Assembly (NCBI GenBank): GCA_950295325.1
Contig: OX485809.1
Coordinates: 10,230,001 to 10,294,000 of the forward strand
Direction of reading: 5' to 3'
Source: Polytrichum commune
Lineage: Eukaryota > Streptophyta > Polytrichopsida > Polytrichales > Polytrichaceae
Length of the DNA stretch: 64,000 nt
A program made the position numbers and the translations under genes. The notes beneath the pieces are model-generated. The model worked only from the letters and a program-made list of their open reading frames with translations. It did no database searches and was not told the DNA's origin. How positions within the stretch are numbered: position 1 is the first letter of the stretch; each line of letters starts with the position of its first letter. Below are positions 36,170-54,449 of the stretch, piece after piece.

Positions 36170-37882
36170 TTATGTAGCAATATTAGATGTACATTTCGGT
36201 AATCCGCATATTATCTTGTGGAGTGCTATAATTTTTTTGTCGAGTTTCTTGATGGCCGGAATAGAGTATGGTACTGCGTAAAAGCTATAGGCTATTCCAG
36301 CACGTATGACTGTGTCTGCCATGTTGATTTTTTGCTTCATGGTGGCTGGACATGCTACGAGGGCTTGACATTGTTTGATGGTTTTTGCTGTAGTGGTGTT
36401 TATTTGTGTTTTCCATTTAAGTGAAGGTGCGAGGTTTATTCCAAGATAAGTGTATGGTTCGTGTTGGTTTAAAACTGGAATTGGTTGCTTTCTATAATTT
36501 ATATTAGTAGATTGGATCAAGGCTTTGAATGTTATGGGATTCATTTTTGATTTATTAGGACATCCGGTCACTGTGTATTTGGGTATTCCTAGGTCCATTC
36601 TTGCCCATCCGCAAAATTTGTCTAATTTATTTAGTTGTACTTGTAATGATTTTAGTTTGTTAGCAATAGCTGCCAAGTCATCTACATATGCTGCGGATGT
36701 AATTTTTTCTTTAGATGTTCCGAAGGTGTATCCATTATCACCTTGATGTAGCCATCTAAGGAGGGGTTCTAAAAATATTATAAATAAGTATGGGCTGAGA
36801 ATGTCTCCTTGTATTGTATATCTTTGAATGAGGATAGGTAGGATTTTACCAAAGTGTTCTCCCGTAAATATAGTAGATGTTTGTGAGTATATGTTCCCAA
36901 CGAGGTTTATGGCGTCAGCTGGATAGCCCAGGTCCTTCATTATGGCTAAAAGTCTTGCATGGTCAATGGAGCCGAAAGCATTTTTTAAGTCGATATAGAG
37001 GATGTATATATCTTGGTTCGTAAGTCTAGCATCTTCTAATGCTGCAATGAGGAGTTGAAGTTGCCTAGATGTTCCTCTTTCAGCTCGAAATCCTTCTTGG
37101 TTGTCATGCAATATTTGGTATCTTTCCCCATAAGCTGAAAGGATAGATGTTAGTGTGCTTGTGTATAATTTATATATGGTGTTAGCTAGTGCGATAGGTT
37201 TGTGGTTGGTAAGTTTTGACGGGTTCTCTTTCTTATATAGTAAAATTGTTAAATTGGTTTTCCACGATGCGGGAATTTGTTTTTGTTTGTAGCAGTGTTT
37301 GAAGAATAGATAGAGTAGTTTGTGAAATCGTGGGGGCATATTTTTTAAGATTGAATTAAAGATTTTGTCTGGGCCCGGAGCTTTGTTGTTGCCTAGGTTT
37401 TTAAGGCAGAAGTCTTATGTGTCTTGGTCAAAGTATGTGTGCAGGGGAATTTGGGGATCACCACGTTGATCGATTGTAAATCCTTCTAGGTCGTGCCATG
37501 GGTATTGCCTAACACCACATGTGCAGTATGGTAGGTGAATATTATGGTAGTGACATGTGGGTATTGTTGGGCGGTTACTGATGGATTGTTGGATGTGTAT
37601 TTCTTTTGCAATGACTTCAGGGCTAGTTAGGATATTGTTTTGTCTATCCGTAATGGAGTCTAAGGGGGAGGTTTCGGAGTGTTTGAAGACTTTCCTATTT
37701 ATCTTTTTGGGGCTTTTTTCATACATTTGTCGATATTTTGATACAGCTTTTAGAATACAGTCTTTGGTATATTTTGTGGTGATTTTCCTGGCGTCTTTAT
37801 TAGCGGTTTTTGCAATGGCAGTTATGATGTCTATCCATTCATTTGGAGGAGTGGTTGTTGTGGGTGGGTGTGGGATTAACAC
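36170..37882 (-). pseudogene. LINE reverse transcriptase (interrupted)
   Basis: One frame with a stop at 37415. Segments in order: NNKAPGPDKIFNSILK near 37,390, YIDLKNAFGSIDHARL near 36,980 (catalytic Asp), TIQGDILSPYLF near 36,800, AYVDDLAA near 36,680 (catalytic Asp pair) and YLGINLAPSLKWKTQI near 36,440. These are the conserved blocks of non-LTR reverse transcriptases. Catalytic residues are intact; the stop and the flanking frameshifts disable the copy. Confidence 0.9.
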
Positions 37883-37905
37883 ATTTTGGTGATTTCGAAT
37901 TTCAT

Positions 37906-39090
37906 TTAGGATAGGGTGAGTTTGCCAGTGTGGGTTGTTTTTTGCAATGTATATAGTTTTTCTAATAAGGTGATATGTTTCAAGGTATTTTTTCCATTTT
38001 TTAGATAGTTTTCGTGGCAGGAAGCCACCTTGCTGTGCAGTTTTGTTCGTGAGGGATGGTATTGGGGCTGCTTTGCAGGTTTTTCAATGGTTTCAGAGAT
38101 TTTTTCTACAATATTGTCTAGTGTTTCACATGCTTCTTGCCATTGATCAGAGTTGAGGTGGTTGTGGTCCTGTAGTAGTTTGGTTAGTTCGTTTAGTTGT
38201 GTGGAGTATGTTTCGAAAAATTCTATATTGAATTTTTCTAAGTTTTTCGGAGGGATTGGGTTTAGTATTTTGGTTGGTGTGATATTCATGGGGAGTAGGG
38301 GTCTAGCTATAGGTGTGTTTTGGGGTATGTGCAGAGTGACTGGGTAGTGGTCTGAGTTTAGATTCATGTCTGTGTTTGTTGTGGAGGTAAATCTATTATT
38401 GTATGGTGAGTTGATATAGAAGCCGTCTATAAGGCTGGTTGATGTGTAATTATAGCCTCCTTGTCTAGAGAGGGTAGTGTCTGTAGGGATATATTCTAAA
38501 TTGAGGGTTGTGGTGAAGTTTTTCCATTGTATGTCTTCTTCTTGTGGAGGTGTGTTATTGTTATGGTTTTGTCTACCAGTGAGTGCAATGTCTCGGTTAA
38601 AATCACCACATAGGATGTGCGTGTGGTTTGGATGTGCAATGATTTGATTAGTGATTGCGGTTTTGAGGTACGGAATGAGGTGGATATCTTCTAAGTGTGT
38701 GGGCATATACATGTGTATGATTAGCCATGGTAGGAGTGGGTGATTGTTTATTTTTATTATTTGTAAGTATGGGGAGATGTTTGCTGGTGAAGGGATCTTG
38801 GTGACGTTTCCGGGAAATGCGTATTTATTATGAATTAGTGTGAGTAGGCCACCTCTTCCGGGGGTGTAAGGCATTCTTTGTTGTATACATCTTGTGAGGG
38901 CGTGCATGTTGTTAAAAATAAGTTTGTATTCAGGGAATAAATTTTGTATGTATTTTGTTGATTTAGTTGCTGTCAATTTGGTTTCTTGGATATTAATGAT
39001 TGCAGTGTTTCTGAAGGAGTAGTTTATTAGGCTTTGTAGATTTGATAAGGTTGTGTTAAGCGACGAGGCATTCTAAGTTATCATGTTTGT
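37906..39090 (-). pseudogene. LINE APE-type endonuclease domain (interrupted)
   Basis: Endonuclease/exonuclease/phosphatase fold motifs: IINIQETKL near 39,000, HILCGDFNRD near 38,605 and NLNSDHYPVTL near 38,350. The Glu, Asp, Asn and His expected for target-site nicking are present. A TAG near 39,076 sits where the usual Trp-Asn start of this domain would be (TWNASSL read as T-stop-NASSL). Confidence 0.85.
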
Positions 39091-39285
39091 TTCGTGGTTG
39101 ATATTTATGACGTTTCTTGGAGTTGGTGTAGGTGTGTTTGGGAGTAGAGGCGGGTGTGAGTATTCGTTTATGTTTTCTAGGCATCGGAGATATTCGGTTA
39201 TTAATTTTTCTGGAAGATAGAAAATTTTTCTTTGAAGTGTGGCTGGAGTAGGTGGGATTTCCTGGCTGTGGATGAATTCATTTAG

Positions 39286-40186
39286 TTAAGTATGTATAGT
39301 GTTTTTAGGGAGTATTATGTTTTGGTTATTTTCTACAAATGTAGTGTATGGATGTTGTGTTAGAATATGTCGTACGGGGGGGTTGTTAAGGTTGGCTAGC
39401 CTAATAATAAGCGTATTGGTCCATATATTGTTAAAGTGGTGAATGTGTAGTTGGGCTAGTATATTGTTACATGTGTTTATTGAGGGGTTTATAGTGATGA
39501 TTAAGGCATATAGTATGTGAGTTGTTGGGGAATGACTTTGTGTTTGGATGTATTGATGCAAGTATGTATATGTAGTGGATGCTTGGTGATGTAGTGGATG
39601 ATTATGTTTTAGTATGGGTGCAAATGTGGTAGCTATGTGTTGATATTCGGGTTGCAGTTTTATCGTATTTGGAATAAAGTATTATTTGGTTTTTTTTTTT
39701 GTGTGAAGCGGGATGTGTGTGTAAAATATCAGGCATTGGTCCGAGGTTGGGTTCTATATCTCCACATTTTAATAATGTTAGTTTGTTAATGAAGTAGTAC
39801 CCATGAAGTTGTATCGTTTTTGGTTTTTTCTTGTTTATTTTTAGATATTTGGTAAGTATGAATCTAGTTGTTATAAAAATGTTGGGTAAGGCAAGTATTT
39901 TGTTTGATATTTGTTTGGTTGAGAAGTGTGTATTTGTGTTGTCTTTAGGTGTGTGGTCTGTTATTGAGTGAGGTGTCCAGCTGTTTACGATTTGGTATTT
40001 GTTTTTATTTTTGTGGCGAGGCCGGGTGGCCGAGGCTGTTTTATGTTGAAGGCGATGTTTCAATTGAAGTGTATGTTTAGAATGACATTTATATTTTGTG
40101 TGTATAGAGTGGTTGTGGTAGGATTCGTGTAGGTGTGGGTATATTGTTTGTTTATTTTTGTTGCGAGGCCGGCCGGCCGAGGCCAT
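39286..40186 (-). pseudogene. LINE N-terminal ORF with 2A-like motif
   Basis: Two frames (39602-40186 and 39286-39561). Residues coded by 39737-39760 read D-I-E-P-N-L-G-P, preceded by LLKCG. This is the layout of ribosome-skipping 2A peptides (D-V/I-E-x-N-P-G-P) known at the N-terminus of several animal and protist LINE polyproteins; one Pro is replaced by Leu through a CCC-to-CTC change. Upstream residues are basic, with a PR-x-KNK segment twice. No other domain recognised. Confidence 0.6.
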
Positions 40187-40462
40187 TTGGTGTTTTGTTT
40201 GGTGTTTTGTTTGGTGTTTTGTGAGGAGTTTGGTGAATATTCATATTTTTGTATTTGTTGTGAGTAACCTTTTAGTTTGTGTGAGTGTCATTTTATTGTG
40301 TGATACCGGTTGTTTATTTGTCTGTGTGTTGTTTATTATGTGTTTAATGGGCGTCTTTGTTTTTATTTTATTTATTTGTATTCTTAGAGTGGTATTGGTA
40401 AATACTACGATTGTTTTGTTTGGTTTTAGAATGTGCGTTGTGAGTTTTTTACATATATGATA

Positions 40463-40875
40463 TGATGATACTATACGGTATTTGTATATATGTTTGTTGT
40501 ATTTTGTATGTAAATATAATTTTATATTATATAATTTTGATATTACGTATGTTAGAATTAGTCTTGTCCGTATAGTGTTGAAGAATACTATACGGTGTTT
40601 GTATTGTTTTTTATATAAGTATATTTTTATTTTATATTTACTTGTTGTTTTGTATATAAAGTTTTGTTTTATACGTATAGTATTTAATAATACTATAATG
40701 TTTTTGTTTTTGTATTTTATATAGAAATATATTTGTATTTTATGTTTTATTGATGTTACGTATGTAAAAACTCGGTTTTTATTTCTAGTATTTAGTAATA
40801 CTATATGGTATTTGAAATTATTTTTGTTGAATATTGTATAAAAATATTATTTTATTTTATTTTTTCTTATCGCTA
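40463..40875 (-). repeat. Degenerate tandem repeats upstream of the LINE ORF
   Basis: TACTAT, preceded by an inverted ATAGT a few bases away, recurs at about 40469, 40588, 40691 and 40799, spacing 103-119 bases. The intervening AT-rich sequence is alignable (TTTGTATT, TTTTATATT, ACGTATGT). Its position directly 5' of the LINE coding region resembles promoter monomers of other LINEs. Confidence 0.6.
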
Positions 40876-40889
40876 CGAATGTCAAAACT

Positions 40890-42190
40890 AGTTTGACGTG
40901 TCCATATTACCTTCAATTTCGGGTGTGTCGGGGTGATCCGCTTGGAGGGTTTCGAGGGTGATGCGCATTTATTTTTGGAGGAGTGCAATTTGAATTCTTG
41001 AGTTGCGATTTGATTATGCTTGAACTTTATCGGCATACATTCTTGCTTCTTCTACAATTTCCTCTTTAAGGAGGCTCATCTCTTTCCGAATTACTACTGC
41101 CCCTTTATTTACAACCTCTTCAACCATCTTGCTTAAGTCCGCTTTTGTGTATCCTTTCAAAGGTACATTCTCCATTGCTTGGATTGTGTTTGCAAGTGCG
41201 GTATTGACATCCGAAAACCCAAGTCTAGTTAGTTCTATTGGAGAGGGGGCGTCAATTCCATCTAGGCTTTTGGGATGAGGTGAAAATTCAACGTATTTGC
41301 CAAGAATTAGGTGATTTTGCTTCACATATTTCTTATATACCGCTGCGTTTAGACACTGCACATTGCATGAACCCACATGTTTCCCTTTCTCTAATCGGAA
41401 GAAAATACCCGCTACGTTTTCCTCTCCAAGAGTTTCTTTATTCCCTCCTCTAAGGCAGCGGTTGTTTTGGTTTTGTTAAGGTTTTTTGCAATTAAAACCA
41501 CCGCATTTTTCCTGGCTTTGTCATCCTCTGAAAGGTTCTCGGCATTAGCAAAGTTAAATTCCATGATTTCATTAAAGAATGAAATCTTGTAATTTTAATT
41601 TTCTTAGCTTGGTCCGGGGATGGGGTTTTTATCCAAGCAAATTCTGTATTATCATTTTTTTGTACGCTGGTAACTTCAAATTCATATCCTCGTTTGAAGC
41701 TATCATTTACTATTTCCTCGTGTAGTTGGAACCATTTCTTGTCCTTGAATGTTGGACTAGAAATTTTAACCGAGAGTAAACTTGCTATTGCTATTGAGTC
41801 AAACGACTTGAAGACCTTTCCCCTACAATAAGAAATGTTGTCCAATTTGAGGATGAATGATCTTATTCCTAGTAGAAGATCATTACCATCTTTTACCGGA
41901 TTCTTGATGTGGAGTTTAATTGTTCCACTCCACCTCTTAGAGCCGTGAAAACAAAGTATAGCAATCGGTTCACTTAGCACTTCTCCTAGTTGAATGTTCA
42001 TTTTTTCCAGTCTAGCTTCCGTTTTTGCATAGATTTCATCTCTTGTTAGGTTTCGATCACATAACTCAAATGCTATGGCAATTTGATAATATAGAGAAAA
42101 TCCATTTTCATCAACCTCAACATCAAACGGAATGTCGTGTAAATAACGATCGTGTGTCACTGCAGCTCGAGTACCAACCACCACTAACAA
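40890..42190 (-). pseudogene. Unrecognised ORF, broken, probably element-borne
   Basis: Joined by eye across at least two frameshifts near 41,580 and 41,400: DIPFDVEVDENGFSLYYQIA, GSKRWSGTIKLHIKNPVKDG, VLIAKNLNKTKTTAALEEGI, VGSCNVQCLNAAVYKKYV, YVEFSPHPKSLDGIDAP, and a C-terminal coiled-coil-like stretch. The middle part (IAKNLNKTKT..., then NVQCLNAA, then YVEFSPH) is laid out like an RRM, as in some retroelement ORF1 or gag proteins. Base composition is ordinary, unlike the adjacent LINE, so it probably belongs to a different element. Two TAA stops precede its end near 40,895. Function unknown. Confidence 0.5.
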
Positions 42191-42521
42191 ACAACACTAA
42201 AACATAGCAAAGTCACACATAAACAACACACCTCGACATGCCCCCCCTCAGCTGATTATGGAGTCCCGCCAAGCAGCTAGGACCAATGCCAATCTAAAGG
42301 GCATGGATAATGAAAGATTGCTCCGCAACTAACTAGTGTGGTAAACGTTATTCTAAGGAACTATAGGCTGGGTGCAATGTGAGCCCCATCCTTAATCGCC
42401 TCTGATGTTTGGCCATCAGATCCCAAAGAATTAAATCCAGCGCCTCATGTTGATTGCGTCTCTAAGCCATAACTCCTCATTTTCCATTTGGGCAGGCACA
42501 AGATGATGAAACCACACATGA

Positions 42522-45500
42522 TCATTGAATACGATTGGTGGAAGCACCAAGTACCGAAGATCCTCGACAGCGAGGACAACTCCACTGTCCAGATGGTAGA
42601 GAAGTCAAGGGTGGCTTCAAGCATGCCATGTGCCAACCGCGTTGACATTGATCACACAAGAGCATAGTAGCCGCTCCTTTCTTCTCTCCACACACAAAAC
42701 ATGGAAGACCCTCTGGCACGACGGCCAGTTCAGGATGAACTGTATCCTCAATAGGTAGATGACATGGGACACAGTTTTTTGAATGCTCGCGACATTGCCT
42801 GCCATCCTTGCCTTCCAACAACAACAAACCACTCGGCAACACCTCCTTCATCCGAAGTATAGTGCGCCCCGCCCTGACATCCAATGTCGTAGGCGCCTCA
42901 CGTTGGAGATAGACATAATTCCCTTGCCGAAATCTCCGCAACTGAGGTCGGTAAGCACCACTACGAATGCGTGCATAACGCAATGTGTCACGGATCTGAG
43001 CAATGGACAAATTCTCCATGGCCATAGGCATGGCCCTCTGGAAGAATTGAGCCCACTCCTGCAAACACTCTGCCCAAAGGTCTGGGTCATCCAAGTTCAC
43101 AACATGAGCTAGTTTTTCCCAAATAAAACTCGGGAGTATAGGCTCACGTCCATACATTAATTGATACGGGCTGTAGGATGCCAAAGAGGCATGCCTACTA
43201 AATCGATAGCCCATAGCAATCCAAGGCAACATAAGGTCCCAATCCCGGTGGCTTCCCCGAAGTAATCCATACTTCCTCAAGCCACGATTGGTTGTCTGAA
43301 CAACCCGTTCAGCCAAGCCATCTGCCTCCAGATGATCCCGAGAGGTGGTGCGGTGATCTATGAGCGCCTTAGTGCACAACTCCTCAAAAACATCAAGGAA
43401 CTCCTTCCATTGGTCCGTCAACACCTCAGCCGGTGCTCCAAAACGTGCCAACACACGATCCAAAAAGGCGGTCCCGGCCAACTCTGCAGAGTTTTGGGGT
43501 AAAGCAACAAGCTCAATCCACTTGCTAAAATGCTCCACCATCACCAACACGTACTTTGCTCCATGTGGCATGACAACCAACGGTCCCGCAAAGTCTAGCG
43601 ACCAATGGTAGCCCAATCCCATGATAGGTAAGGGCTGTAACTGAGGTGACAAGGCGTTAAAGCTAGATCTGACCCGGTCACAAACTTCACACCTCCCGAC
43701 ATAAGCAACCACCTGCTGATACATGCCAGTCCACCAATATTGGCCACGCAACATCGAATGTGTCCTGCGTATGCCAAAATGGCCAAGTTCCTCGTGCACT
43801 TGTCGCACCAAGGAGGCCCTCTGATCCGGCCTAGGAACAATACGCCTTGTCCCATTCGGCCACAATCGAAATAACAAACCGTTCTCCCAACGGAACCTTG
43901 TTATTCGATGTCCAATCCTATCCCTTTCCATTGCCGAAATAGACAAAGAAAAGGTACCCTGTTGAAGCTTATGCAATACGGGAAGATCCTCCCATATATC
44001 CACAATAGCTTGAGGCCGATCAGTCTCATCATCCGAACCCTGTATCAGAATCTCAACAGATGCACCAGAAAATAAAGTAAGGTAGGCAGCCGCGTGCCAA
44101 CCTGGAACCGCCTCTCGATCACAATCTCCATGCCATCTGGCCCCGGTCAAGTCCTCATCTGAAGGACTTGGATTGCGTGAGAGTCCATCTGCATCCATGT
44201 TGGTAATTCCAGCACGGTGTACCACCTCAAAGTTATACTCCTGGAGCAATAAAGCCCACCTGGCAAGCTTGCCAGTAAGCTTATCCGACTCCATGAGCCA
44301 CCGTAACGGCTGATGGTCAGTCACTAAAGTAAAGTGTTGACCATAAAGATACGGCCGAAAATGGGCAATAGCCCATACCGCCGCCAATGCTTCTCCCTCG
44401 TAGGATGAATAATTAGCCTCCGCCGTGTTATTGCTTCGCGAAGCGTAAGCAACAACATACTCCCGACTAAAATCATCTTTCTGAGTGAGAACTGCTCCCA
44501 AACCCAATGAACTCCAATTTGTATGCAACTGGAAAGATTTGGAGACATCTGGACGTCGAAGCACTGGAGCTGTACCCAGTTTCTGCTTCAATGTCTCAAA
44601 CGCCTGTTGTTGCTCACGACCCCAAGTCCACGGTTGGTCCTTGCTCGTGAGAATGGTGAGAGGCTTGGCGATCAAGCTAAAGTTCTTGACGAATCGCCGA
44701 TAGTAATTCACCAAGTCCAAGAAAGCACAAAGTCTCGGCACATCAACCGGTGCCGGAATCTTCTGCAAGGCGTCCACCTTAGCTTGTTGTACCCCAAGAC
44801 CTCCTGGAACAATCATATGCCCCAGATATGCCAGCCGGTCATGGAAAAACTTGCACTTGCCGTGATGCAAGCGCAATCCCCACCGCTGCAACCGCTCAAA
44901 AACAGCTTGAAGATGCCTTACATGCTCTTGTGGTGTTATACTGAAAATGATAACGTCATCAATGTAACACCGAGCAAAGGGTAAGCCAGAGAGAACTTGG
45001 TCCATCACTCTCTGAAACTCCGCAGGTGCATTCTTTAGGCCAAACGGAAGAAACTTCCAATGGTAAAGTTGATCCTTCCCATCTTGATCAACTCCCCATA
45101 ATGCGGTTTTCATTTGGTCTCTCACAAGTAATGGGAGTTGGTGATAGCCGGATCTCAAGTCCAACGTGCTAAAGACTCGAGCAAATCCGAGGGCATCGAA
45201 CAACTCCTCCGGGATTGGCATGGGATATCGATCCGACTTGGTCTTCCGATTAACTGGACGGTAATCCCCGCACATCCGCTTCTCCGTCCAATTGCCAAAG
45301 ATATCATTTTTCGATGGCATAACCGTAGCACAAGCATACTCCCCGTTAGAAAATTCGATTAGCCTTGCTACCAAAAGCTCTCGGCAACGAGCCTGAACGC
45401 CGCTCCGCTCGGAAACACTGAGCCTATAAGGTCTCCGAAAAATGGGATGGTTGTCCTCCAACTGAATGTGGATGGGCTTTCCTTTATAACCTTCAAGATC

Positions 45501-45656
45501 TTGAAGGCTAAAAGCAAAACACCTACGGTACGAGCGAATAAATGCTCGTACTTTCCATGCCTCAGCACCAGTGAGATGAGGGCCCAATTCCAATGGCCAA
45601 TCATCAAACTCTGTAGTCTCCCTCTCCACCAAAGGAGAACCACCTGATGCTGGCAC
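42522..45656 (-). CDS. Gypsy pol: reverse transcriptase, RNase H, integrase and PHD finger
   Basis: Open for 1,044 codons; the frame continues upstream to the TAG at 45669, so 45656 need not be the start. RT: FSTLDLRSGYHQ (about 162-173) and YIDD (231-234). RNase H: LHTNWSS (Asn380 in place of the usual first Asp), SYEGEAL (Glu), TDHQPL (Asp447), DADGLSR. Integrase: His621, His626, Cys656, Cys659 zinc site, then Asp688, Asp748 and Glu783 of the DDE triad (LTDQW has Trp where Gly is usual). The C-terminal PHD finger is at about 986-1030. No protease motif recognised in this frame. The RNase H substitution suggests an inactive enzyme. Confidence 0.92.
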   Translation of the reverse strand: MPASGGSPLVERETTEFDDWPLELGPHLTGAEAWKVRAFIRSYRRCFAFSLQDLEGYKGKPIHIQLEDNHPIFRRPYRLSVSERSGVQARCRELLVARLIEFSNGEYACATVMPSKNDIFGNWTEKRMCGDYRPVNRKTKSDRYPMPIPEELFDALGFARVFSTLDLRSGYHQLPLLVRDQMKTALWGVDQDGKDQLYHWKFLPFGLKNAPAEFQRVMDQVLSGLPFARCYIDDVIIFSITPQEHVRHLQAVFERLQRWGLRLHHGKCKFFHDRLAYLGHMIVPGGLGVQQAKVDALQKIPAPVDVPRLCAFLDLVNYYRRFVKNFSLIAKPLTILTSKDQPWTWGREQQQAFETLKQKLGTAPVLRRPDVSKSFQLHTNWSSLGLGAVLTQKDDFSREYVVAYASRSNNTAEANYSSYEGEALAAVWAIAHFRPYLYGQHFTLVTDHQPLRWLMESDKLTGKLARWALLLQEYNFEVVHRAGITNMDADGLSRNPSPSDEDLTGARWHGDCDREAVPGWHAAAYLTLFSGASVEILIQGSDDETDRPQAIVDIWEDLPVLHKLQQGTFSLSISAMERDRIGHRITRFRWENGLLFRLWPNGTRRIVPRPDQRASLVRQVHEELGHFGIRRTHSMLRGQYWWTGMYQQVVAYVGRCEVCDRVRSSFNALSPQLQPLPIMGLGYHWSLDFAGPLVVMPHGAKYVLVMVEHFSKWIELVALPQNSAELAGTAFLDRVLARFGAPAEVLTDQWKEFLDVFEELCTKALIDHRTTSRDHLEADGLAERVVQTTNRGLRKYGLLRGSHRDWDLMLPWIAMGYRFSRHASLASYSPYQLMYGREPILPSFIWEKLAHVVNLDDPDLWAECLQEWAQFFQRAMPMAMENLSIAQIRDTLRYARIRSGAYRPQLRRFRQGNYVYLQREAPTTLDVRAGRTILRMKEVLPSGLLLLEGKDGRQCREHSKNCVPCHLPIEDTVHPELAVVPEGLPCFVCGEKKGAATMLLCDQCQRGWHMACLKPPLTSLPSGQWSCPRCRGSSVLGASTNRIQ
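42567..42701 (-). other. PHD finger at the integrase C-terminus
   Basis: C-x2-C (CFVC), then C-x2-C (CDQC), x4-H-x2-C (HMAC), then a final C-x2-C (CPRC) with the usual Trp before it (GQWSCPRC): the C4HC3 pattern of PHD zinc fingers. PHD fingers commonly read histone H3 tails, so this could steer integration to particular chromatin, a role played by chromodomains in chromoviruses. All eight ligands are present. Confidence 0.88.
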
Positions 45657-45662
45657 AGACTC

Positions 45663-45671
45663 TAATTGCTA
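45663..45671 (-). promoter_or_regulatory. TAG stop in a leaky-stop context between DNMT and pol
   Basis: The stop ending the DNMT frame reads TAG CAA TTA, with pol continuing in the same frame. TAG followed by CAR-YYA is the type I readthrough context known from tobamoviruses. If functional, it would give a DNMT product and a smaller amount of DNMT-pol fusion. The alternative is a simple CAG-to-TAG mutation of a Gln codon. Confidence 0.5.
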
Positions 45672-46994
45672 ATGAGAGGAGGGGGCATTAACCATGCCCC
45701 CAGTCTCGGTGCTAGTACTAGAGTCTGATATTTCTTCATTACCACCAATATGTGATAATGAAGCCACCACCGGAGGCGAAGAAACCAAAGCAGTGTAAAA
45801 ATGTTGAGCTCGAAGCTCCTCCATCACATGCTGCTCGAATTGAAAAATTCGTTCGGCTTCTCCAACCATAGCGTGAATTCCTTCCTCCATGGGTGTGGAC
45901 CGCTGTGCCCCCTGACCAGAGTCCTCTGCCCCCAGAGACAACCACTGGTCACCACGATGCCTTTGCAATGAAAGGCATAAAGCAACAGTCCACACCATAG
46001 TATGAAGATCCATAGCTTGGCCCAACACGAAGCGTCGTTGGCCCTCAGAAAGGCCGGGAGCTGCGGTGGTGCCAGTGCGGAATCCCATGGCACGTTCCTG
46101 TTCGTCAGCCAATGGTTCGGTGTGGGTTTTGGTGTGAACATCCCACACCATACCCGGCCCCTTATCGCAGAAAGCGAATGACTGTGGAAACGTCATAAAT
46201 GTGGGAAAGGCCCGCCGTGGTGCCCCCATTTTGTTGACCAATGCCAACGGGGGTAAATCATCTCGAATAACCGGCAAAGATGTCCGGTTTGAATCCAAGA
46301 TGTCATCCACCTTTTGATCAAAAGGTGGAGGCACTGCAGAAAATGCTGCAGCTAAAGTAGATGACAGTGCGAGGTTGGTCCAAATCCACCGAGGTCGGTG
46401 GGCATAAGAACCAATGCTAGCGGCATCCACAAAAATAGGATCTCCAAGGTGTTGACGAACATAACAATCGCCTTCCAACACCTTGTCCCGAGAGTCTCCC
46501 AACAAAGGTACATTCTCGAAGATATACCCTGGAGGGGAAGGTTGGTGGGTAAACCACCACTGCATAAGCCGGATGAGGTCCCAGAAAAGGCTAGACCTGG
46601 GATCCTCTAAACCTCGGCCTGCTCCAGCACGTGAGTGGCCTTGGCATGGCCATCCCGCAATCACCATATCCACCGGGCCCAAGTGTCGTAAGTCGGCCTC
46701 ACTGATGAGTGTAACATCACGAGGGAGACGTGAAAAACACCCATGAATGGCAGTTGGGTGTAACTACTGGGGGTACAATACCATCAACTGGTGAAGATGG
46801 TGACGAGCCACACGGGTGGACACTTGAGAGTTGTCCACATAGACATACCGTCTGACCGTGAGGCCAGCCTCCAATACGGCCGCTAAGCCTGTGCCGATGC
46901 CCCCAAACAGTTCCACCAAAGTATTCCCCGCGTCTGGCGGCTGCCATAAAATGGGATGTGCCAATGCCGAGAGGACACCCGGTATGACCGGTAT
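45669..46994 (-). pseudogene. Cytosine-5 DNA methyltransferase domain of the Gypsy element (one internal stop)
   Basis: One frame from about 46,994 to the TAG at 45669, broken by a single TAG at 46764-46766. Motif I (SAM binding): VELFGGIGTGLAAVLEAG near 46,890. Motif IV: VIAGWPCQGHSRAG near 46,650, with the Pro-Cys catalytic pair. Motif VI: FENVPLLG near 46,515. Motif VIII-like: AHRPRWIWTNL near 46,395. Motifs IX/X: RAMGFRTGTTA near 46,085 and LGQAMDLHTMVW near 46,010. Motif order is that of eukaryotic DNMTs; the sequence looks closer to DNMT3/DRM-type than DNMT1, but this is an impression. No regulatory domain is seen. Catalytic residues are intact apart from the stop. It presumably methylates cytosines of element or host DNA. 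Confidence 0.88.
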
Positions 46995-47111
46995 GACTCA
47001 AAAAAAAAAAAAAAAACTTAGGTCATTGGTTGGCCTAGCCAACTACTACCACCACTTCATTCTAGATTTGTTTTAAGGTTGCTAAGGCCTTATTCAACTT
47101 ATTGAGGAAAT

Positions 47112-48000
47112 GGCTATCCCAAGAGTGGGATGAGCCTTGTCACCAAGCCTTTGGGAAGCTCAAGAGCAAGTTCCCTTCACAAGATGTGGTTAAGTTTCCG
47201 GGTTTTCATAAGCATTTTGAGGTGCACATGGAGACAAAGGACTTTATCATTGGCGGATGTTGATCCAAGATGGATGACCATTGCTTATGAGAGCATTAAG
47301 CTCCATGGTTGTCGAACCTTGTCCGGCTTGTGCAAGAAATGGCTATCCCAAGAGTGGGATGAGCCGTGCCACTAAGCCATTGGAGAGCTTAAGAGGAAGT
47401 TGTCTTTGCCACCCGTGCTCAAGCTTGCGGAGTTTGCCTAACCTTTTGAGGTGCATACGGGGGCGAGTCACTTTGCCATTGGCGGATGTTGATCCAAGAT
47501 GGAGGACCATTGCATATGAGAGCAATAAGCTCAATGGTTGTTAAACCTTGTCCGGCTTGTGCAAGACATGGCTATCCCAAGAGTGGGATGAGCCGTACCA
47601 CCAGGTCCTTGAGGAGCTTAAGACGAAGTTCTCTTCGCCGCCCGTGCTCAAGTTCGCGGAGTTTGACATACCTTTTGAGGTGCATGCGGGGGTGAGTGAC
47701 TTTATCATTGGCGGATGTTGATGTAAAAAAAAAAGATGGCCATTGCATATGGGAGCATGAAGCTCGATGGTTGTCCGACTTGTGAAAGAAATGGCTATCC
47801 CAAGAGTGGGATTAGCCTTGTCACCAAGTCTTTGGGGAGCTTAAGAGCAAGTTCTCTTCGCCGCCCGTGCTCAAGTTCGTGGAGTTTGACAAACCTTTTG
47901 AGGTGCATACGGGGGCGAGTAACTTTGTCCATGATGGATTGTTAATGTAAGATGGATGGCCTTTGCATATGGGAGCTTGAGGCTCGATGGTTGTCAAAGA
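47112..48000 (+). repeat. Four tandem copies of a 229-bp RNase H segment
   Basis: GGCTATCCCAAGAGTGGGAT recurs at 47112, 47341, 47570 and 47793 (spacing 229, 229 and 223). Each unit carries the same order: KWLSQEWDEP-like, FEVH-like, IGG-like and IAYES-like segments, i.e. the end of the RT connection and the start of RNase H. The first three copies share the GGCGGATGTTGATC frame break (the fourth is diverged there), so amplification followed loss of function. Copy 3 has an A-run (about 47,725-47,734) absent from the others. Confidence 0.88.
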
Positions 48001-49342
48001 AGACAACCAACTCATGACAAAGAACTTCTTTGCCGTAGTGCATTGCTTGAAGATGTGGCGACATTATTTGGGGTCGCACAAAGCAAAGGTCTACATGGAC
48101 AATGGGTCCTAAAAGTATTTTAACATGTACAAGCGCAAGTGAGCGCCAAGTCATTGCGGTGGCATGATAGTTTGGTGCTTATGAAGGTGGATTTGATCCA
48201 CAAACCGGACCGTGGAAATGTGGTGCCGGATGCGCTAAGTAGACGGGAAGAGTTCCAAGCAATGAGAACCATCCAAACCTTGTGGCTAATGTGTGCCGGC
48301 GAAGGAAACTTGTAATGCAAGATACGGGAGGGGTAAATTCACTACCCCGAGGCACAAAAGCTTTTAGGTGAGCTTAAAGAGGTTAAGTTGGTGGATGGAT
48401 TGTTCAAGTGCAAGCAAAGTTGGGTGTATGTGCCACAAGGCAAGTAGAGGCTATCGGTTTTGAAGGAGGAATTTGATAGTCCTATTGCCGGCCATAGAGG
48501 AGAAAAAAAAAAAAAAAAAAAAAAAAACCGCCATAGAATGGTGTCATGGAGTTACCATTGGCGGTGCATAAAAGGAAGATTTAGCCCACTTTGTGAAGGC
48601 TTGAATTAAAGTGCCAAGTGAACCGAGCCTCTTATCAAAAGCAAGGCGGTTTCTTGCAACCGTTGCCTATCCCGTCGGCGCCATGGCATAGTATGTGCAT
48701 GGACTTGATCACAAGTTTGCCGGAGTCACATGGGTATGATGCCATCTTGTTGATGGTAGAGCGGTTTGCCAAGTTGGCACACATGGTGCCGATGTGGGAG
48801 CCGCCACCGCGTTGAAGACCGCATAGCCTTTTCTCAAAGGATGGTTGAGGCACCACGGGTTGCCAAGAGTGATTGTGTGGGATCAAGATCCAAAGTTCAC
48901 AAGTGCATTTTCAATGCATTTCTCTAAGGAGGTCGGAAGGAAACTAAGGTTTAGCACGGCCTTGCATTCCCAAATGGATGGGAAAACGGAGCGTGTGAAT
49001 GGAGTCTTGAAGCAATACTTGAGGAACTTGGTGGGGGCGGACCAAGGAGATTGGGCGGACTATGTGGGTCGAGCGGAGTGTAATTGCAATGTAGCCACGC
49101 ACTTGGCTACCAAGGGGTGGTCTTTGGTGGTGGCTTATGGAGTGGATGCGTTCCAACCTATTAACCTAGCTCTCGAGGGGGCACATTCAACACTAGAGTT
49201 CAACCAAGATGGTGAGGACTTGGCCAAGGATGGTAAACAAGTCTTGGAGATGACCAAGTTGTTGGTGGAGAAAGCCCGAAGGTGCTACGGAGTGCAAATC
49301 AATGCCGGAAGACGCGAAGTGGAGTATGAGGTGGGCCAATAA
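48001..49342 (+). pseudogene. Gypsy RNase H end and integrase (broken)
   Basis: Readable pieces: FAVVHCLKMWRHY and YMDNGS (RNase H), KPDRGNVVPDALSR, then integrase core WHSMCMDLITSLPES near 48,690, VIVWDQDPKFTS near 48,870 and SQMDGKTERVNGVLKQYL near 48,970. The last frame runs 48,845-49,342. An A-run at 48,503-48,526 sits where the integrase zinc-finger segment starts (IAGHRGEK). Several stops and shifts. Confidence 0.85.
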
Positions 49343-49804
49343 GGTGTTGTTGAATGTAGACAACTTCACCTTGCCCAAAGGCCTTACTTCAAAAGTTCAT
49401 GTCCAAAATTGGAGCTTCATTTTCCATTGTGGAACAAGTGTTCAAGGACATGTATAAGTTGGAATTACCGCCAGAGATCAAAGTGCATCCGACATTTCAT
49501 GTCTCATTACGAAAGTCATTTTAGGACGACACCTTGTAGCCCGATCACAAGCAAGTGATTAGGCCACGTCCTGACCTTGTAGAGGTCATTTGGAACATGA
49601 GGTAGGAGGACATCCTCAAGTGTAGGAAGCCCAAGTGAAAATGAAAGAAAATGTACAAAGGAGTACTTGGTGAAATGGTGGGGATACCATGAGAAAGAAA
49701 CCGCTTGGGTGGCGGCAAGAGACATGGTCAACACCAATGAATTGGTGAAGCACTTTGAAGAAACTAAGGCTAAGGATTCCAATAAAATGAAGTGTAGGCA
49801 TTGA
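49343..49804 (+). pseudogene. Integrase C-terminus with chromodomain
   Basis: The frame 49,658-49,804 reads KEYLVKWWGYHEKETAW then VAARDMVNTNELVKHFEETK, the standard chromodomain layout of chromovirus integrases; these bind modified histones and direct insertion into heterochromatin. The upstream linker (near 49,480, VHPTFHVS) is also typical. The upstream frame is broken. Confidence 0.85.
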
Positions 49805-50618
49805 TGAGGACATCAATCTCCTTTAGTGGGGGAGAGACGCTAGTAGCACACTTAGCTTCGAGGTTAATTACTCCACAACATGAACTTGTTCTTTGGCTTG
49901 AGGGAATAAAGTCCAAACTTTAGTGGTGCAAAGAGAAAAGTATGAGATGAGGTCCTAGTCTTGTACTTGTGCTTGGTTAATGGAAGAGGGGGAATAGATA
50001 TGCCAAACTAGGTTGGGTAAGCCGAGTAATTGGGGGCCATGGCTTGGAGGGGCCTTGGATAAAACCAAGAAACTTCTTAGTTGTGGGCTTGTCCGGGCGG
50101 GGACAAGGTGATGGCGCGTGCTCATAAAAGTGCTACCCGCGAGCTAACGAGAGTTGGCGCATGGGAGTCATGAACCCATGTCTCGAAAGAGCAAAGTGGG
50201 AACCGAGTCGGGCGGGACTTGGCATCATCCCCGTGCGATCGAGGCGTGGCTTCACAATGGAAAGCCATCTCGGAGTTGCAACCAAGACAACTTAGTGGAA
50301 GCGTTGAGGTCTCGCCTAGATGTGTCACGTTAGGCTAGGGGAGCCTAACGGGGGAGGCCCCAAAGGAGGGGCAACCCAAGTGAGTCCCAAAGTACGTGGG
50401 TCTAGTGTAGGTTAGGTCCTTGGAGGAGAGATCTAAGGTCGCTAACGGACCACCTAGGAACGACACCTTTGGGACTATGCCAAATTTGAAGATGCATTGT
50501 GGGGGTCGCGCCCTAAGGTAAACACAATGCCGCACCATAGAGGATGGCAACTTGAGAATTGGTGTGCCGACTACGAGTATAGTCGATGAGGGCATCGACT
50601 CCGTTTGGTGGGGGTGAA
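49805..50618 (+). other. Non-coding tail of Gypsy element(s), with two polypurine-tract-like sites
   Basis: GATGAGGACATCAATCTCC...AGTGGGGGAGAG at 49,803-49,838 and GATGAGGGCATCGACTCC...TTGGTGGGGGTGAA at 50,586-50,618 are related. Both look like the 3' end of a chromovirus just before its LTR; only the second is followed by a clear LTR start. The tail may therefore be two nested or recombined elements. No ORF supported. Confidence 0.5.
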
Positions 50619-51593
50619 TGTCGCGCACCTCTCCATGAGGAGTGCCCGAAACACCATGGGCACAAGGGGGACCCCGGAGTGACACCCGGGACTTGTGGCG
50701 CCGTTGGTGAGAGGGCCCAAGTGATCCTAGTGTGGGTGAGGGCCCTGGGCGTTGGGAACGCCTCCCACCCACGGAGACTAGGAGGCACAAGGGGAAAGCC
50801 ATGAGTTATGCGTAGCTCATGGCGTGGTGATTCTAGAAAGCTCAAGAACACCTCAATCGGAGGTGTGAGCTAGGAGTTATGGCCATTTGAGTGGGGCGCT
50901 GTCCCGGGACAGCGCCCTGGTACAGCAGTGCCTGGGAGTGATTCCCGGGACTGCCAAGCTTCAAACAGGCATAACTTCCTCAAGACTTGCCCAAATGGGG
51001 CAAGTGAGGAGTCCATCGGCATCTACGTGAAGCGTAGATGAGGATGGAGTGGTTGGTTGTTATGATGAGACATCATACAAGGAAGTTATGATGCTCTGAA
51101 GCGGCTGGGGGGGTTCTAGGCCCAGCAGCTAAAGGAAAATGTCCACTTGGCCCCAACTCTGGGTAGAGAGACAAGAGGTTGGTTGACGGTGGGGTAGGGG
51201 CCCCGCGTGAAGTCCTAGAGGCTTATATGGGTGAGGTGGTGTGGCCTCACCCACCCGAGGCCGAACGGCACGGCCTTCATGGGCATTGGCCCAATGTGAG
51301 GCCATAGTTGCCTAGTATGGTTCGGGTTGTTGTAGTGTTGCTCCGGCAACGCGATGATCAACATAGGATTGGACTTCCATGGATGGAAGTCCACATTGGG
51401 GAAATGGGTTACCGATTAAGGGGTGAGTCCCGAAAGCAAAGTAGGAGGGTTGGTTCCCTCCTATGAACTATAAGGTCCGGGGTAGGAGGAGCTAACCATT
51501 AGCATGGCGGAATGCGAATGGTTAGCGCTCGTAACCTTTGCTAGAATTGAAAATTGGCAAGATTGTCAAGGGGGATTAGCAAGGGTTGCGACA
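50619..51593 (+). repeat. 3' LTR, 975 bp, TGTCGC...GCGACA
   Basis: Begins TGTCGCGCAC immediately after a polypurine tract (TTGGTGGGGGTGAA) and ends GGGTTGCGACA; the six terminal bases are inverted repeats. A TATA-like GGCTTATATGGG lies near 51,218. Contains several direct repeats (GACGGTGGGG, CCCGGGACT). No second copy is present in the window, so age by LTR divergence cannot be estimated. Confidence 0.85.
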
Positions 51594-52433
51594 GGATGCC
51601 TTCCCTTCCAAAATCCTACCTGCTAAGTGAAAAACCTTAGCAGGTTGGAACTTTGGCGATGACCACTCCATGGCCGTGAAAAAATGTGTGTGCAACACCT
51701 TGGATGCCAACGTGTGCGCCACATCAGTCGCTGAATGTGAAATCTCATCGTTCGGATGACGACCACTGACAGATTGGACGGCATCGGCCAATCCAAAAGA
51801 TAATGGTAGCCGTGCCTAACCAATTTGGTCCGCGGGCGCATTGTCCCGAGCTCGCGAGCTTGCCACATATTCATTTGTAGTTGAAGGTATAGATTGTGAC
51901 ACGGCTTGAGCACGTGTCACAGCCGCGGAACTCACCACCTCGCCCGAGGCTCCGAACATATAGTAATCCGGAGTGGAAGAACTAGCCTAAGCTCCGGAGG
52001 AAGACGGTGAGGCCAAGATTTGGCCGGATGACGCCAAACTTTTGAACCTCTCCTCCATGGCTCCAATCTTCGCCTCCAACGTCTTCTCCCGGTCGGAAGA
52101 AGGACGTTTCTCAGGATGGAGAACAAAGCAGTTCTCTACCGCGTGATTGTTCCGCCTACAATGGGAACACTTCAACTGCTTGGGTAACTGATTACCTGTC
52201 GTCCCCTTCGCCGAGCCCTTAGCGGGAACAAATGGTTTCCGCTTCAGAGTAATGACGGTCTGGGCTTGCCTTTGCTTCGAAGGACAGTCCTTTTTAGCGT
52301 GGCCGGCCTGCCCACAAGACCAACAATACATAGTCTTGTCTACCTCGGCCTCCGCCAATCCCGCACAATCCCGCACAATCCCGCACAATCCCGCCAATCC
52401 CGCCAATCCCGCACAATCCCGCCAATCCCGCAC
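51594..52433 (-). pseudogene. Gag with two zinc knuckles, likely of the DNMT Gypsy element
   Basis: One frame with TAG stops at 51987 and 51816. CWSCGQAGHAKKDC (C-x2-C-x4-H-x4-C) near 52,310 and a second knuckle CSHCRRNNHAVENC near 52,165, then EKTLEAKIGAMEERFKSL, a short coiled coil. Zinc knuckles package element RNA. The frame reaches 51594, exactly where the plus-strand LTR ends, so the insertion interrupts this ORF. The 5' part is replaced by a minisatellite at 52,356-52,450, so the N-terminus is unclear. No protease is recognised in it. Confidence 0.75.
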
Positions 52434-52450
52434 AATCCCGCCAATCCCGC
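52356..52450. repeat. Minisatellite of mixed 9- and 10-base units
   Basis: Ten uninterrupted units of CAATCCCGC, with or without a leading A. The order by length is about 9-10-10-10-9-9-10-9-10-9. It lies across the 5' end of the readable gag frame, and its total length is not a multiple of three. Confidence 0.9.
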
Positions 52451-52454
52451 GGTC

Positions 52455-54440
52455 TGGACAATGGGATGGTCACCAAATCAACAACCCAAATGAATTATAA
52501 TCTAGGTACAAAGAGAAAAAGGGTCAAAGGCAACTTGCACCTGCAACCACCACCAAAACTTATGGTCTGCTGGTCATTAACCCAGCCTCACCACAAGTGA
52601 AAACAAGCACCGCCCACTTGGTGCACAAACAAAGGTCCCGTCGGTCATTAATCCGACCTCACCTCCACAGTACCCTATCACAATCTAGGACGACACAAAA
52701 TGGGGCAGTGCTAGAACACTCCAGCACTACAGCCCGCCACAGGGGAAGGTACCAAAACAAAATACAAGGAACAATGCAAGAACAACACTGGATCCTCTTC
52801 CCCAAAACAACATTCAAGCAGAAATTGAAAACGACCGCAACCAACTGGCACCCGCCTGCAGTTGGTGGTCAAAATAAAGAACCCCTGTTGTTTAAGAAAA
52901 GAAATTGCATAAGCACATCGCTCATCTAGTGCTACAACATAAAATCCTCTCGTCCCCGAAGTCCCGGGAATTTGTGTTTCTAAACACAATTCGCTCTTAA
53001 CAATGATATTGTTAAGTCGAATGGTAATTCCATGTACCAATTTGCCCCACCCCTCGGCAATTCCCTAAACAATCTATAAACTTATCCCAAAATAAAATCT
53101 ACAACAACAATCAACCTAACCCCAAATAAATCCTAACACCTACAACATCCTAAAATGATTCATAACACCCACAAATTGCCCTAAATAAAAGAGAATGAAA
53201 ATCCCCGCTTATGACAAATACCTCTATCAAGTCGTTGCGGGAGAAAAATAAGCTAAGTGCAAATTCGCCGAGATTCCACGTCCTTCGCGTGTTGCCGGAT
53301 GCTCCCGCAAACCTCTCCCGCAATGCTCCACCCCGCCCAACCTCAAAAAGGCCGTAATGTTCGATAAGGCATTTAGAAACGCCGGTATCGGAAATTCTCC
53401 GAGTCGCCAAATGTGTTCTTGATTAATTGCAATAACCTTGGCAACAATACTTGCTCAAAAGTTGGGTTCATAAAGCGAAGAATGGCATATTGGAAACTCT
53501 ATAGACATATATATCCATATATCTATATTGTAGTTTTATTTGATTTTTTTTTGAAATTTTTTTTAAAAAAAAATGCGGGAAGGGGCTGCTGGCTGCTACC
53601 GGCCAGCAGCCTGCCCTGCTGCCGCAGGGCTGCAGGGGGGGGTAGGCTAGGTGAGGGGGGTAGGGCTGGGGCTAGGTAGTTAGGTAGGTAGTTAGGGGAA
53701 GGAGCGAGGAAGGGGCCGGGGGGGGGGGGAAGGGCCCGGGGAAAGAGAAAGGAGGGGGAAGGGAGGAGGGGGGTGGGACCGGCTTGCTGCCGGCCGCCGC
53801 GGGTTGACGCCGCGTGCCGCCGGGTTGAGAAACCAGGAGCTCCAAGAGGAGCTCCGCCGCCTCTCCTCTCTTCCTACTTTTTTTTTAAAAAATTTTTTAA
53901 AAAAAAAATTGTTTTGAATGAAATCACACTTGAATCAAAATCAAGAGTGTTCTTGACAAGCTCAATAATGTAAATTCAAGCTTGCAAGCAAACAAATGGC
54001 ACGAAATTCCGTGGAGAATTCAATATTTCTCACTATAATTCAAGGTGATGTCTAAACTTCACAAGCACACATCTTTCTTCTTGTTGCTTCAACAATCCGC
54101 GGCTTCCTCCGCTCCAAAACTCCGGAACTTCGTTGCTCCTTATCTTCACGCCGTCCCTAGCGCATTAAATTTCAAGAATAAAGTAGAAAACATAAAAAAA
54201 TGAGGCATTCTTGCCAAGTGAGAAAGAAGAGAGTAGAACACTCATAAGAGCTCTAATTTCTCTCCAAATGTACACAACTAGTCAAGCAATCTCTCACTCC
54301 ACCAAGGGAGAATCCAAGAGTGTAAGTAGGAGAAGAAGAACTCAAGATTTATTGCAAAATCATGCAATCTACACCTCACACAAGCTCTCTTCACACACTA
54401 ACTCACAAGACTTGACTTGGCAAGAATGCCAAGCCAAGGA
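52455..54440. other. No supported gene; contains a G-rich island
   Basis: No domain recognised on either strand. It may hold the 5' leader or LTR of the minus-strand Gypsy element, but I see no LTR ends. The segment 53,520-53,910 has A/T homopolymer blocks at both edges around a G-rich core with palindromes. Confidence 0.5.
53520..53915. repeat. G-rich island bracketed by T/A homopolymer blocks
   Basis: Left block (about 53,542-53,573) and right block (about 53,879-53,911) are both runs of T followed by runs of A. Between them lies very G-rich sequence with GGCTGCTACCGGCCAGCAGCC-type palindromes and runs such as GGGGGGTAGGGCTGGGG that could form G-quadruplexes. Confidence 0.7.
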
Positions 54441-54449
54441 GGAGGCTCC

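Follow-up and report, generated by a model that had tools for sequence, protein, structure and literature searches.

The window, by which we mean the whole stretch of 64,000 nucleotides analysed here, carries a worn copy of a retrotransposon family that we assign to Ty3/Gypsy, that encodes a DNMT3-type cytosine DNA methyltransferase (DNMT), and whose members appear to join the chromosome through a site within their repeats instead of through the termini that reverse transcription produces; that would be unusual for an element of this type. By the textbook account, LTR elements and retroviruses integrate linear cDNA by its primer-site and purine-tract ends. Here the primer site, the purine tract and the insertion ends can all be located to the single base in many copies, and the insertion ends fall elsewhere than the other two. 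The overall model, which we regard as reasonably probable, is that of a Ty3/Gypsy element with a Gag-level DNMT3, readthrough of a UAG codon, self-primed reverse transcription and displaced integration at an internal palindrome. The DNMT3-bearing Gypsy element and the DIRS-like repeat order are already known; less expected is that order in company with a DDE integrase, TG...CA ends and 4-bp target duplications. The split direct repeats, the predicted self-priming, the UAG context and the proposed displaced integration site go beyond the preliminary description of this DNA.

That description had placed a DNMT and a Gypsy pol at 42522-46994, and both lie there on the minus strand, with RVT_1, RNase H, H2C2, rve and PHD domains all above the Pfam cut-offs. 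They form the 3' half of a decayed Gypsy insertion delimited by blastn to copies L010, L020 and L024, the parts of which are as follows.

42133-54552, minus strand: whole insertion, a subfamily-B DNMT3-Gypsy copy of A-coding-B form with foreign DNA inside (blastn to L010/L020/L024; target-site duplication TTCC on both sides)
54553-54556, minus strand: target-site duplication, 5' copy, TTCC (sequence)
42129-42132, minus strand: target-site duplication, 3' copy, TTCC (sequence)
54220-54552, minus strand: repeat A1, starting TGTCACG (sequence)
54415-54429, minus strand: 15-nt self-primer within A1, predicted RNA 5' end (reverse complement of the primer-binding site)
54207-54219, minus strand: 13-nt primer-binding site directly 3' of A1 (sequence)
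51594-52997, minus strand: remnants of leader and ORF1 (Gag part), pieces missing (blastn to L010 968-1507 and 2572-3340)
46993-51593, no strand: foreign DNA replacing about 0.9 kb of ORF1 (gap between blast segments; repeats)
45672-46992, minus strand: DNMT3-type methyltransferase and variable tail, end of ORF1, with in-frame TAG at 46764-46766 (Pfam PF00145; PDB search with the homologous copy L010)
45669-45671, minus strand: conserved UAG between ORF1 and ORF2, then CAATTA (sequence)
42525-45668, minus strand: ORF2, pol (ORF and blastn)
44811-45281, minus strand: reverse transcriptase (PF00078)
44235-44624, minus strand: RNase H (PF17917, PF17919)
43341-43829, minus strand: integrase, H2C2 zinc finger and rve core (PF17921, PF00665)
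42567-42701, minus strand: PHD finger (PF00628; PDB search)
42239-42250, minus strand: polypurine tract directly 5' of B (sequence)
42133-42238, minus strand: repeat B, the sole B of the window copy, ending ACACGACA (blastn and sequence)

The wear of this copy is evident in its in-frame TAG, the missing parts of ORF1 and the foreign DNA. None of the family's long direct repeats was found in 34000-54000, a stretch that excludes A1, and the copy has one A and one B.

In the 408 Mb genome there are 182 distinct places that match the DNMT. Among the matches listed, a DNMT lies upstream on the same strand in 87 of 116 pol copies, the pol copies having been found without reference to the DNMT, and all seven fetched from the remaining 29 encode one (five complete, two partial; the other 22 lay outside this check). 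A DNMT inserted once beside a single Gypsy pol, so that other copies would lack it, is refuted by this genome-wide pairing, and with related proteins existing elsewhere as well we give it practically no weight. A Gypsy lineage that carries a cytosine DNMT and ends its pol in a PHD finger, as first proposed, is supported by Pfam and by the genome copies; the association of DNMT and retrotransposon is not itself new, since KnitGypsy-Dnmt3 precedes it in the accessible part of PMC5890265. A search of viral contigs for relatives gave eight pattern matches, none of them a relative. The 20 copies that were read at length were chosen for long open frames.

The window DNMT matches PF00145 (Pfam, E 2.2e-12). 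Core residues of the motifs that we take to be I, IV (PCQ), VI (ENV) and VIII (HRxR) are invariant across nine aligned sequences, and the presumed motif X is found in all eight alignment rows that reach that far. The best PDB match of the DNMT of copy L010 is DNMT3A (E 1.4e-7), covering residues 52-169 of 291, followed more weakly by 3g7u, a cytosine methyltransferase (4.3e-5), M.HhaI (9.7e-5), 4onj (0.003) and DRM2 (about 0.04), and an AlphaFold model of the domain has a pLDDT of 78.6 and a pTM of 0.84. By its catalytic motifs and closest match we class the family's enzyme as DNMT3-type. Of the seven pairs for which a DNMT dN/dS ratio could be obtained (it could not for one distant pair), five give 0.11-0.30; two pairs of young subfamily-A copies give about 0.45, and the tail behind the DNMT gives 0.51-0.89. 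The domain thus appears to be mostly under purifying selection.

The DNMT had been described as lying in the same frame as pol, immediately 5' of it. The shared frame stands, but the domain is not a simple N-terminus of pol: the captured DNMT3-type domain is, as judged from the reading frames, the C-terminus of ORF1 (Gag-protease-DNMT), and ORF2, with the order RT-RNaseH-integrase-PHD, follows in frame after one UAG. The UAG is present between DNMT and pol in 36 of 36 copies inspected and so is not damage to the window copy. In 35 of these 36 it is followed by CAR-YYA (the exception being TAATTA), which we take to be the TMV-type readthrough motif and which occurs in five spellings, CAATTA, CAATCA, CAACCA, CAGTTA and CAGCCA, while the surrounding codons vary among subfamilies. 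The best PDB match of pol is Ty3 (E 3.1e-101); the protease match reaches only E 0.0014-0.004, under Pfam's cut-off. The domains and the UAG context are read directly from the sequence, and from them we infer that pol is produced by occasional readthrough. Some related database Pol proteins (P0027, P0028, P0030 and P0036) are predicted as separate Met-initial ORFs, as would be expected if the UAG were a plain terminator and pol arose through an internal start, splicing or a subgenomic RNA; we consider this rather unlikely, however, given the unshifted frame, the single UAG and the retention of CAR-YYA in five spellings among differing neighbouring codons. The position of the DNMT at the C-terminus of ORF1 means that the enzyme would be expected at the Gag level, and it may be packaged in the particle. 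A DNMT3 in the Gag-level product would change how much of the enzyme is to be expected and where, and gives a sharper form to the idea of self-methylation found in the accessible part of PMC5890265.

CpG depletion from self-methylation was not seen: the CpG observed/expected ratio of the window copy is 0.70 and that of six copies 0.68-0.75, compared with values of 0.39 and 0.49 for two stretches of the window that flank it and of 0.73 for a neighbouring LINE stretch. Mismatch rates at CG and CHG are about equal, which looks more like ordinary plant silencing than the trace of a CG-writing element.

Copies in all three subfamilies read A-coding-B-GC-A-B, with A1 at the left and B-GC-A-B at the right, so that two identical LTRs do not stand at the extreme ends. 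The 17 copies read at both ends all have TG...CA ends and perfect 4-bp target duplications, and in all 17 A1 stands without B. The sequence TTACACGACAGCTGTCACG has 138 exact copies in the genome, against none for a reversed-pattern control, and among 100 junctions listed all 39 that lie within 9 kb of a same-strand DNMT match are downstream of it. Of the 85 DNMT matches in the fully listed region, 46 lack an exact junction within 9 kb. In the region fully listed in both searches, no exact junction lies upstream of 28 of the 74 exact joints, and these 28 could be solo A-B units. Of 16 U5|U3 joints, 14 read as exact and the other two are shortened at CTTG microhomologies; a joint shortened in this way may also come from later deletion. 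Left-duplicated copies were not seen among these elements.

Could this layout have arisen by ordinary linear integration of an element whose LTR is A-B, with later rearrangement having added B-GC before A2 and removed B after A1? An A-B unit with TG...CA ends does resemble a normal LTR, and the possible solo units would suit it, but A1 stands without B next to intact duplications in 17 of 17 copies, the primer-binding site (PBS) follows A1 and not B, and the layout is common to three subfamilies; we therefore hold this to be very improbable.

The PBS points to self-priming. In one copy from each of three subfamilies primer and PBS are perfectly complementary over 13, 15 and 13 nt, with compensating changes, whereas the match never exceeded 10 nt at the 972 control positions of each subfamily and was 5-7 nt long when primer and site came from different subfamilies. 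The pair is present in 16 loci (the fetched DNA missed the primer stretch in two and the site in two) and in the window copy too. Inspection by eye of the A1 end found no tRNA primer; self-complementarity accounts for the site. A purine tract lies directly before B1 in the three subfamilies (PPT), and with the complementarity would indicate that reverse transcription makes the repeat B-GC-A.

Complementarity, termini, duplications and junctions are observed; the route that links them, including end joining and the integrase's choice of site, we infer as follows. The RNA 5' end, inside repeat A, would pair with the 13-15-nt site directly behind A1 and prime reverse transcription, giving linear cDNA with B-GC-A repeats. 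Insertion would then occur at the palindrome GACA-GC-TGTC inside the repeat and not at the cDNA ends: the U5 and U3 ends would become joined together, the DDE integrase would cut the palindrome copy near the U3 terminus, the left cDNA end lying about 107 bp away in subfamilies A and B and 233 in C, and the resulting TG and CA ends would enter the target with a 4-bp stagger to give A-coding-B-GC-A-B. The A-coding-B form of the window copy could reflect cutting of both palindromes, or later recombination between two B repeats. The site choice needs an extra assumption, because a free cut in a two-repeat circle predicts half left-duplicated copies.

The repeat order is also that of DIRS/Ngaro elements, as the accessible part of PMC5890265 says likewise for KnitGypsy-Dnmt3. 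One may thus suppose an RNA of the form A1(part)...B1-GC-A2-B2(part), in which B1-GC-A2 acts as a splint that restores the ends and closes a circle on which the DDE integrase acts, B2 being copied and not joined. We judge this unlikely, since the PBS and PPT sit at the ends of B-GC-A, two joints are shortened, and B1 and B2 of subfamily A look copied from one template per cycle: the difference between them is 0.33 bases inside one element, as against 4.36 from element to element (nine elements), the contrast being weak in subfamily B (0.67 against 1.00, six elements). DIRS/Ngaro elements share the split direct repeats in the order A-coding-B-A-B, but use a tyrosine recombinase and are not known to make target duplications. 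The present family has a DDE (rve) integrase, TG...CA ends and 4-bp duplications, and ORF1 and ORF2 have no Pfam match to a tyrosine recombinase; by these features and the PR ... RT-RNaseH-INT order its sequence is that of a Ty3/Gypsy element. Self-primed reverse transcription, predicted here from complementarity, would be shared with the Gypsy elements Tf1/Sushi and Tcn1 (PMC6317226, accessible part), from which the present family differs in its PHD finger, DNMT and proposed displaced integration site; a chromodomain gave no Pfam match in it.

The nearest known system is the DNMT3-bearing Gypsy element KnitGypsy-Dnmt3 of Klebsormidium nitens (de Mendoza et al. 2018, PMC5890265), which, as far as the accessible text goes, has the same Gypsy domains, DNMT3-type enzyme, A-coding-B-A-B repeats and purifying selection; that text describes neither target duplications nor priming for it and does not explain its repeats. 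There the DNMT lies inside the Pol polyprotein ORF, whereas here a UAG separates Gag-PR-DNMT from pol, a PHD finger closes pol and the host is another plant. We see about equal chances for and against a conserved lineage, ranging from Klebsormidium to bryophytes, whose integrase uses other ends than those that reverse transcription makes, the DDE integrase cutting one LTR palindrome on end-joined (circular or tandem) cDNA. If so, a Gypsy element would have a natural route of integration through circle junctions, in a particle loaded at the Gag level with a DNMT3 of its own, and this enzyme may methylate the cDNA ahead of insertion. With the primer and purine-tract sites lying apart from the insertion ends, the old question of whether the integrase of a retroelement can act on cDNA joined end to end becomes testable in a plant. 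Land plants are without DNMT-bearing retrotransposons according to the accessible part of PMC6338049; plastid psbA and telomeres put the present host in the plant lineage, and if it is a bryophyte, as its closest named relatives suggest, the family would place such retrotransposons in land plants.

The K. nitens protein P0080 (KFL_009030040, partial) has the order PR-DNMT-RT-RNaseH-INT and falls on the PR-DNMT-RT side in both DNMT and RT trees, its exact position being poorly supported. Gene models of Marchantia polymorpha (P0117 Mp_2g26090 and P0121 MARPO_0091s0058) and Closterium (P0103 and P0137) likewise have the DNMT upstream of RT; these are fragmentary database records, apparently not described as elements, and such models may splice across a stop. 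In both trees Marchantia nests within the group of the window family and Closterium branches outside it.

The pol ORF of the window and the cytosine methyltransferase (DNMT) domain upstream of it on the - strand share one frame, and comparison with other copies places both in the 3' half of a single insertion, running from 54552 down to 42133 with TTCC on either side. The preliminary description had put the domain immediately 5' of the Gypsy pol and in frame with it; position and frame hold, while immediate continuity gives way to a stop codon.

42525-45668, - strand: pol ORF (RT, RNase H, integrase, PHD finger)
45669-45671, - strand: single TAG between methyltransferase and pol

This copy is decayed, pieces of ORF1 (Gag-protease-DNMT) being gone, 46993-51593 being foreign DNA and a further in-frame TAG lying within the DNMT. 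The foreign DNA contains four 229-bp tandem repeats (47088-47997) and a + strand ORF (48845-49342) that by eye resembles an integrase piece from a different Gypsy family.

The genome searched comprises 408 Mb and has seven large contigs. A PF00145 search gave at least 123 places (352 candidates, 123 scored), a few of which could be host DNMT genes, and a search with the DNMT protein at least 121 (595 candidates, 121 scored); combined, they mark at least 182 distinct DNMT-matching places. Among pol matches found independently of the DNMT (the best 116 scored of 3095 candidates), 87 are preceded on their own strand by a listed DNMT match, 0.8-6 kb away and at a median offset of 1587 bp. Seven of the other 29 were examined upstream, five of these pieces having been picked for long open frames, and all seven encode a DNMT (five complete, two partial). 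The association noted in the window recurs in other copies, and from these sequences the DNMT seems to be a constant component of the family.

Twenty stretches of 10 kb, taken around copies with long open frames, fall into two subfamilies, A and B, plus an outlier, L026 (subfamily C). ORF1 is typically about 1360-1390 codons and ORF2 (pol), which is broken in several copies, about 1046 where unbroken, measured stop to stop. By eye, ORF1 carries a pair of cysteine motifs resembling zinc knuckles and a protease motif, DSGA. In Pfam both kinds match weakly, below cut-off: zf-CCHC at E 0.0037, which matches L010 alone, and proteases at E 0.0014-0.004. The DNMT sits at the end of ORF1. In a PDB search it matches DNMT3A best (E 1.4e-7), ahead of the cytosine methyltransferase entry 3g7u (4.3e-5), M.HhaI (9.7e-5) and DRM2 (about 0.04), and an AlphaFold model from nine sequences has pLDDT 78.6 and pTM 0.84. 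The PHD finger is closest to those of CHD4, PHF12, MLL, KDM5-type proteins and UHRF1. For the DNMT, two pairs that span subfamilies A and B give a dN/dS (NG86) of 0.11 (a rough value with dS near saturation; a third such pair was not calculable); the ratio is 0.15-0.30 within subfamily B (three pairs) and about 0.45 among near-identical subfamily-A copies (two pairs); over the same eight pairs the tail from the DNMT to the stop gives 0.51-0.89.

The TAG at the ORF1/ORF2 boundary is present in all 36 copies read there (the 20 ten-kb loci, the window, L001-L008 and seven further upstream pieces), and in 35 it is followed directly by CAR YYA, in five spellings, L071 having TAATTA; the coding sequence flanking the TAG on either side varies from one subfamily to another. 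UAG followed by CAR-YYA is the readthrough context of the tobacco mosaic virus type. We infer readthrough of this UAG at the Gag-Pol boundary, in which case the DNMT would belong to the more abundant, Gag-level product.

Insertions have the order A1-coding-B1-GC-A2-B2 in 13 copies (A1/A2 and B1/B2 being first and second copies of repeats A and B) and A1-coding-B1 in four (L009, L011, L019 and the window). All 17 copies readable to both ends have TG...CA termini and a perfect 4-bp target duplication; the other four of the 21 are L021 and L024, whose sequence stops short of the A1 start, and L025 and L028, whose left flank is not covered, the right side of L028 also lacking a junction. Across the genome there are 138 occurrences of the junction TTACACGACAGCTGTCACG and none of its reversed control. 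Among 100 junctions listed, all 39 lying within 9 kb of a PF00145 DNMT match on the same strand are downstream of it, at 4.3-4.7 kb bar two at 5.5 and 7.3 kb. In the fully listed region 46 of 85 DNMT matches have no exact junction; divergence, truncation or an A-coding-B layout may account for these. We also note that, of 74 exact A|B joints, 28 lack an exact B-GC-A junction on their upstream side (e.g. C1:3611167, C2:8538374) and could be solo A-B units or else copies that have diverged, that three A|B joints lie about 4875 bp from a DNMT match rather than about 5100 bp, and that some copies (L013, L025) have a tandem duplication within repeat A, in L013 of 133 bp and in A1 and A2 alike.

The sequence directly after A1 is ACTTGACAACAAT in subfamily A, ACTTGGCAAGAATGC in B and ACTTGTAAAAGAT in C, and its exact reverse complement lies within the element's own A repeat over 13, 15 and 13 nt respectively, as against a longest match of 9-10 nt at 972 other positions per subfamily and 5-7 nt across subfamilies. 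The 13-nt complementary form is present in 16 loci and the window, the count leaving aside L024 and L025 (primer stretch not covered) and L021 and L028 (site not covered). At the sequence level these three compensating primer/site sets speak strongly for Tf1-type self-priming. All three subfamilies have a purine-rich tract immediately ahead of B1, and with the primer site after A1 this predicts B-GC-A as the repeat unit of reverse transcription, in which U3 would start at B and U5 end at A. Polyadenylation-like words follow the primer within A in subfamilies A and B, and none was found there in C. The termini of the insertions, TG of A and CA of B, fall within this unit, where the palindrome GACA-GC-TGTC stands.

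At A2|B2 the predicted U5 end is then fused to the predicted U3 start. Of 16 copies, 14 have this joint exact; the other two, L018 and L025, have an A2 truncated at a CTTG microhomology, and A1 of L018 is complete. Both A repeats of an element bear its own marks (the 133-bp duplication in L013, CCC in L020), and B1 and B2 of subfamily A differ by 0.33 bases within an element and 4.36 between elements (nine elements), with a slight contrast in subfamily B (0.67 and 1.00; six elements). Because such marks are common to both A repeats, and in subfamily A to both B repeats, they point to one template per cycle. On this reading of joints and marks we favour joining of the cDNA ends followed by cleavage at the internal palindrome. 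Retroviral integrases make recessed CA ends with 2-nt overhangs, and cutting CA-GC-TG 3' of CA on both strands would yield two such ends. The duplication is strictly rightward, 13 to 0 in the copies read and 39 to 0 for the junctions listed close to a DNMT. If a two-repeat circle were cut at random, such a bias would not be expected. Under end joining and palindrome cleavage, the bias would follow from loading of integrase at the U3 end, some 107 bp away from the palindrome, and this loading is the model's weakest link.

C/T mismatches amount to 1.67% at CG, 1.44% at CHG and 0.78% at CHH in subfamily A (24 of 45 pairs, 10 copies) and to 1.43%, 1.49% and 0.75% in subfamily B (all 15 pairs, six copies), the pairs not being independent; at A/T sites the rates are 0.31% and 0.37%. 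The pattern resembles plant CG and CHG silencing, and would be compatible with an element DNMT either active or inactive.

The DNMT protein search found 26 related proteins and the pol search at least 1187 at E <= 1e-60 among 8000 scored, the best 120 of which include Calypogeia, Riccia, Marchantia, Klebsormidium and Closterium. Among the matches listed, the closest named pol relatives are proteins of the liverworts Calypogeia, Riccia and Marchantia, with 62-63% identity across 42-73% of the query length; second proteins from Calypogeia and Marchantia have 47% and 51%, and those of Closterium and Klebsormidium 32-51%. These relatives suggest a bryophyte as the likely host. In 145 related proteins, many truncated, the order GAG-PR-DNMT occurs in 16, and a DNMT before RT within one protein in 15, including Marchantia, Klebsormidium and Closterium. 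The liverwort gene models P0117 and P0121 (Marchantia polymorpha; PR-DNMT-RT-RNase H) have the appearance of Gypsy remnants that bear a DNMT. In a second group (P0020, P0022-P0026 and, in part, P0072-P0130) the DNMT is placed after RNase H and ahead of integrase; this order occurs in 20 proteins, three lacking RT and none from a named organism. Such proteins stand apart as one group in DNMT trees and in one RT tree; another RT tree puts P0020 on the opposite side, and P0037 changes position between the DNMT and RT trees. These trees, built without host DNMT3 sequences, would fit either one old capture and one move, or two captures. KnitGypsy-Dnmt3 of Klebsormidium resembles the present family in combining DIRS-like repeats with Gypsy domains, as a figure legend has it without explanation there (PMC5890265). 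Among the papers listed by searches of an open-licence library, outside which subscription journals and preprints mostly lie, we found no report of self-priming, target duplications, the UAG or a displaced integration site in such elements.

In the assembly, three of five contig ends examined have CCCTAAA repeats (of the other two, one is masked and one is without), and a 146.6-kb contig has a psbA ORF and trnH. The small contigs C9, C10 and C15 (carrying L053, L043 and L045) look like contaminants, their contents including GC-rich bacterial-looking DNA and a cox1 that we take to be fungus-like. Elsewhere in the window, 4613-12428 holds four long open frames (- strand, 296-764 aa) with no Pfam match at E 0.01, and 22588-23091 matches the cohesin subunit SCC3/SA HEAT domain (PF24571), probably a host gene. 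LINE-like ORFs (- strand, 32715-42132) directly adjoin the insertion, with the following features.

33453-34118, - strand: RNase H (PF00075, Pfam match)
37906-38976, - strand: endonuclease-like ORF (by eye)
40502-40822: 108-bp tandem repeats
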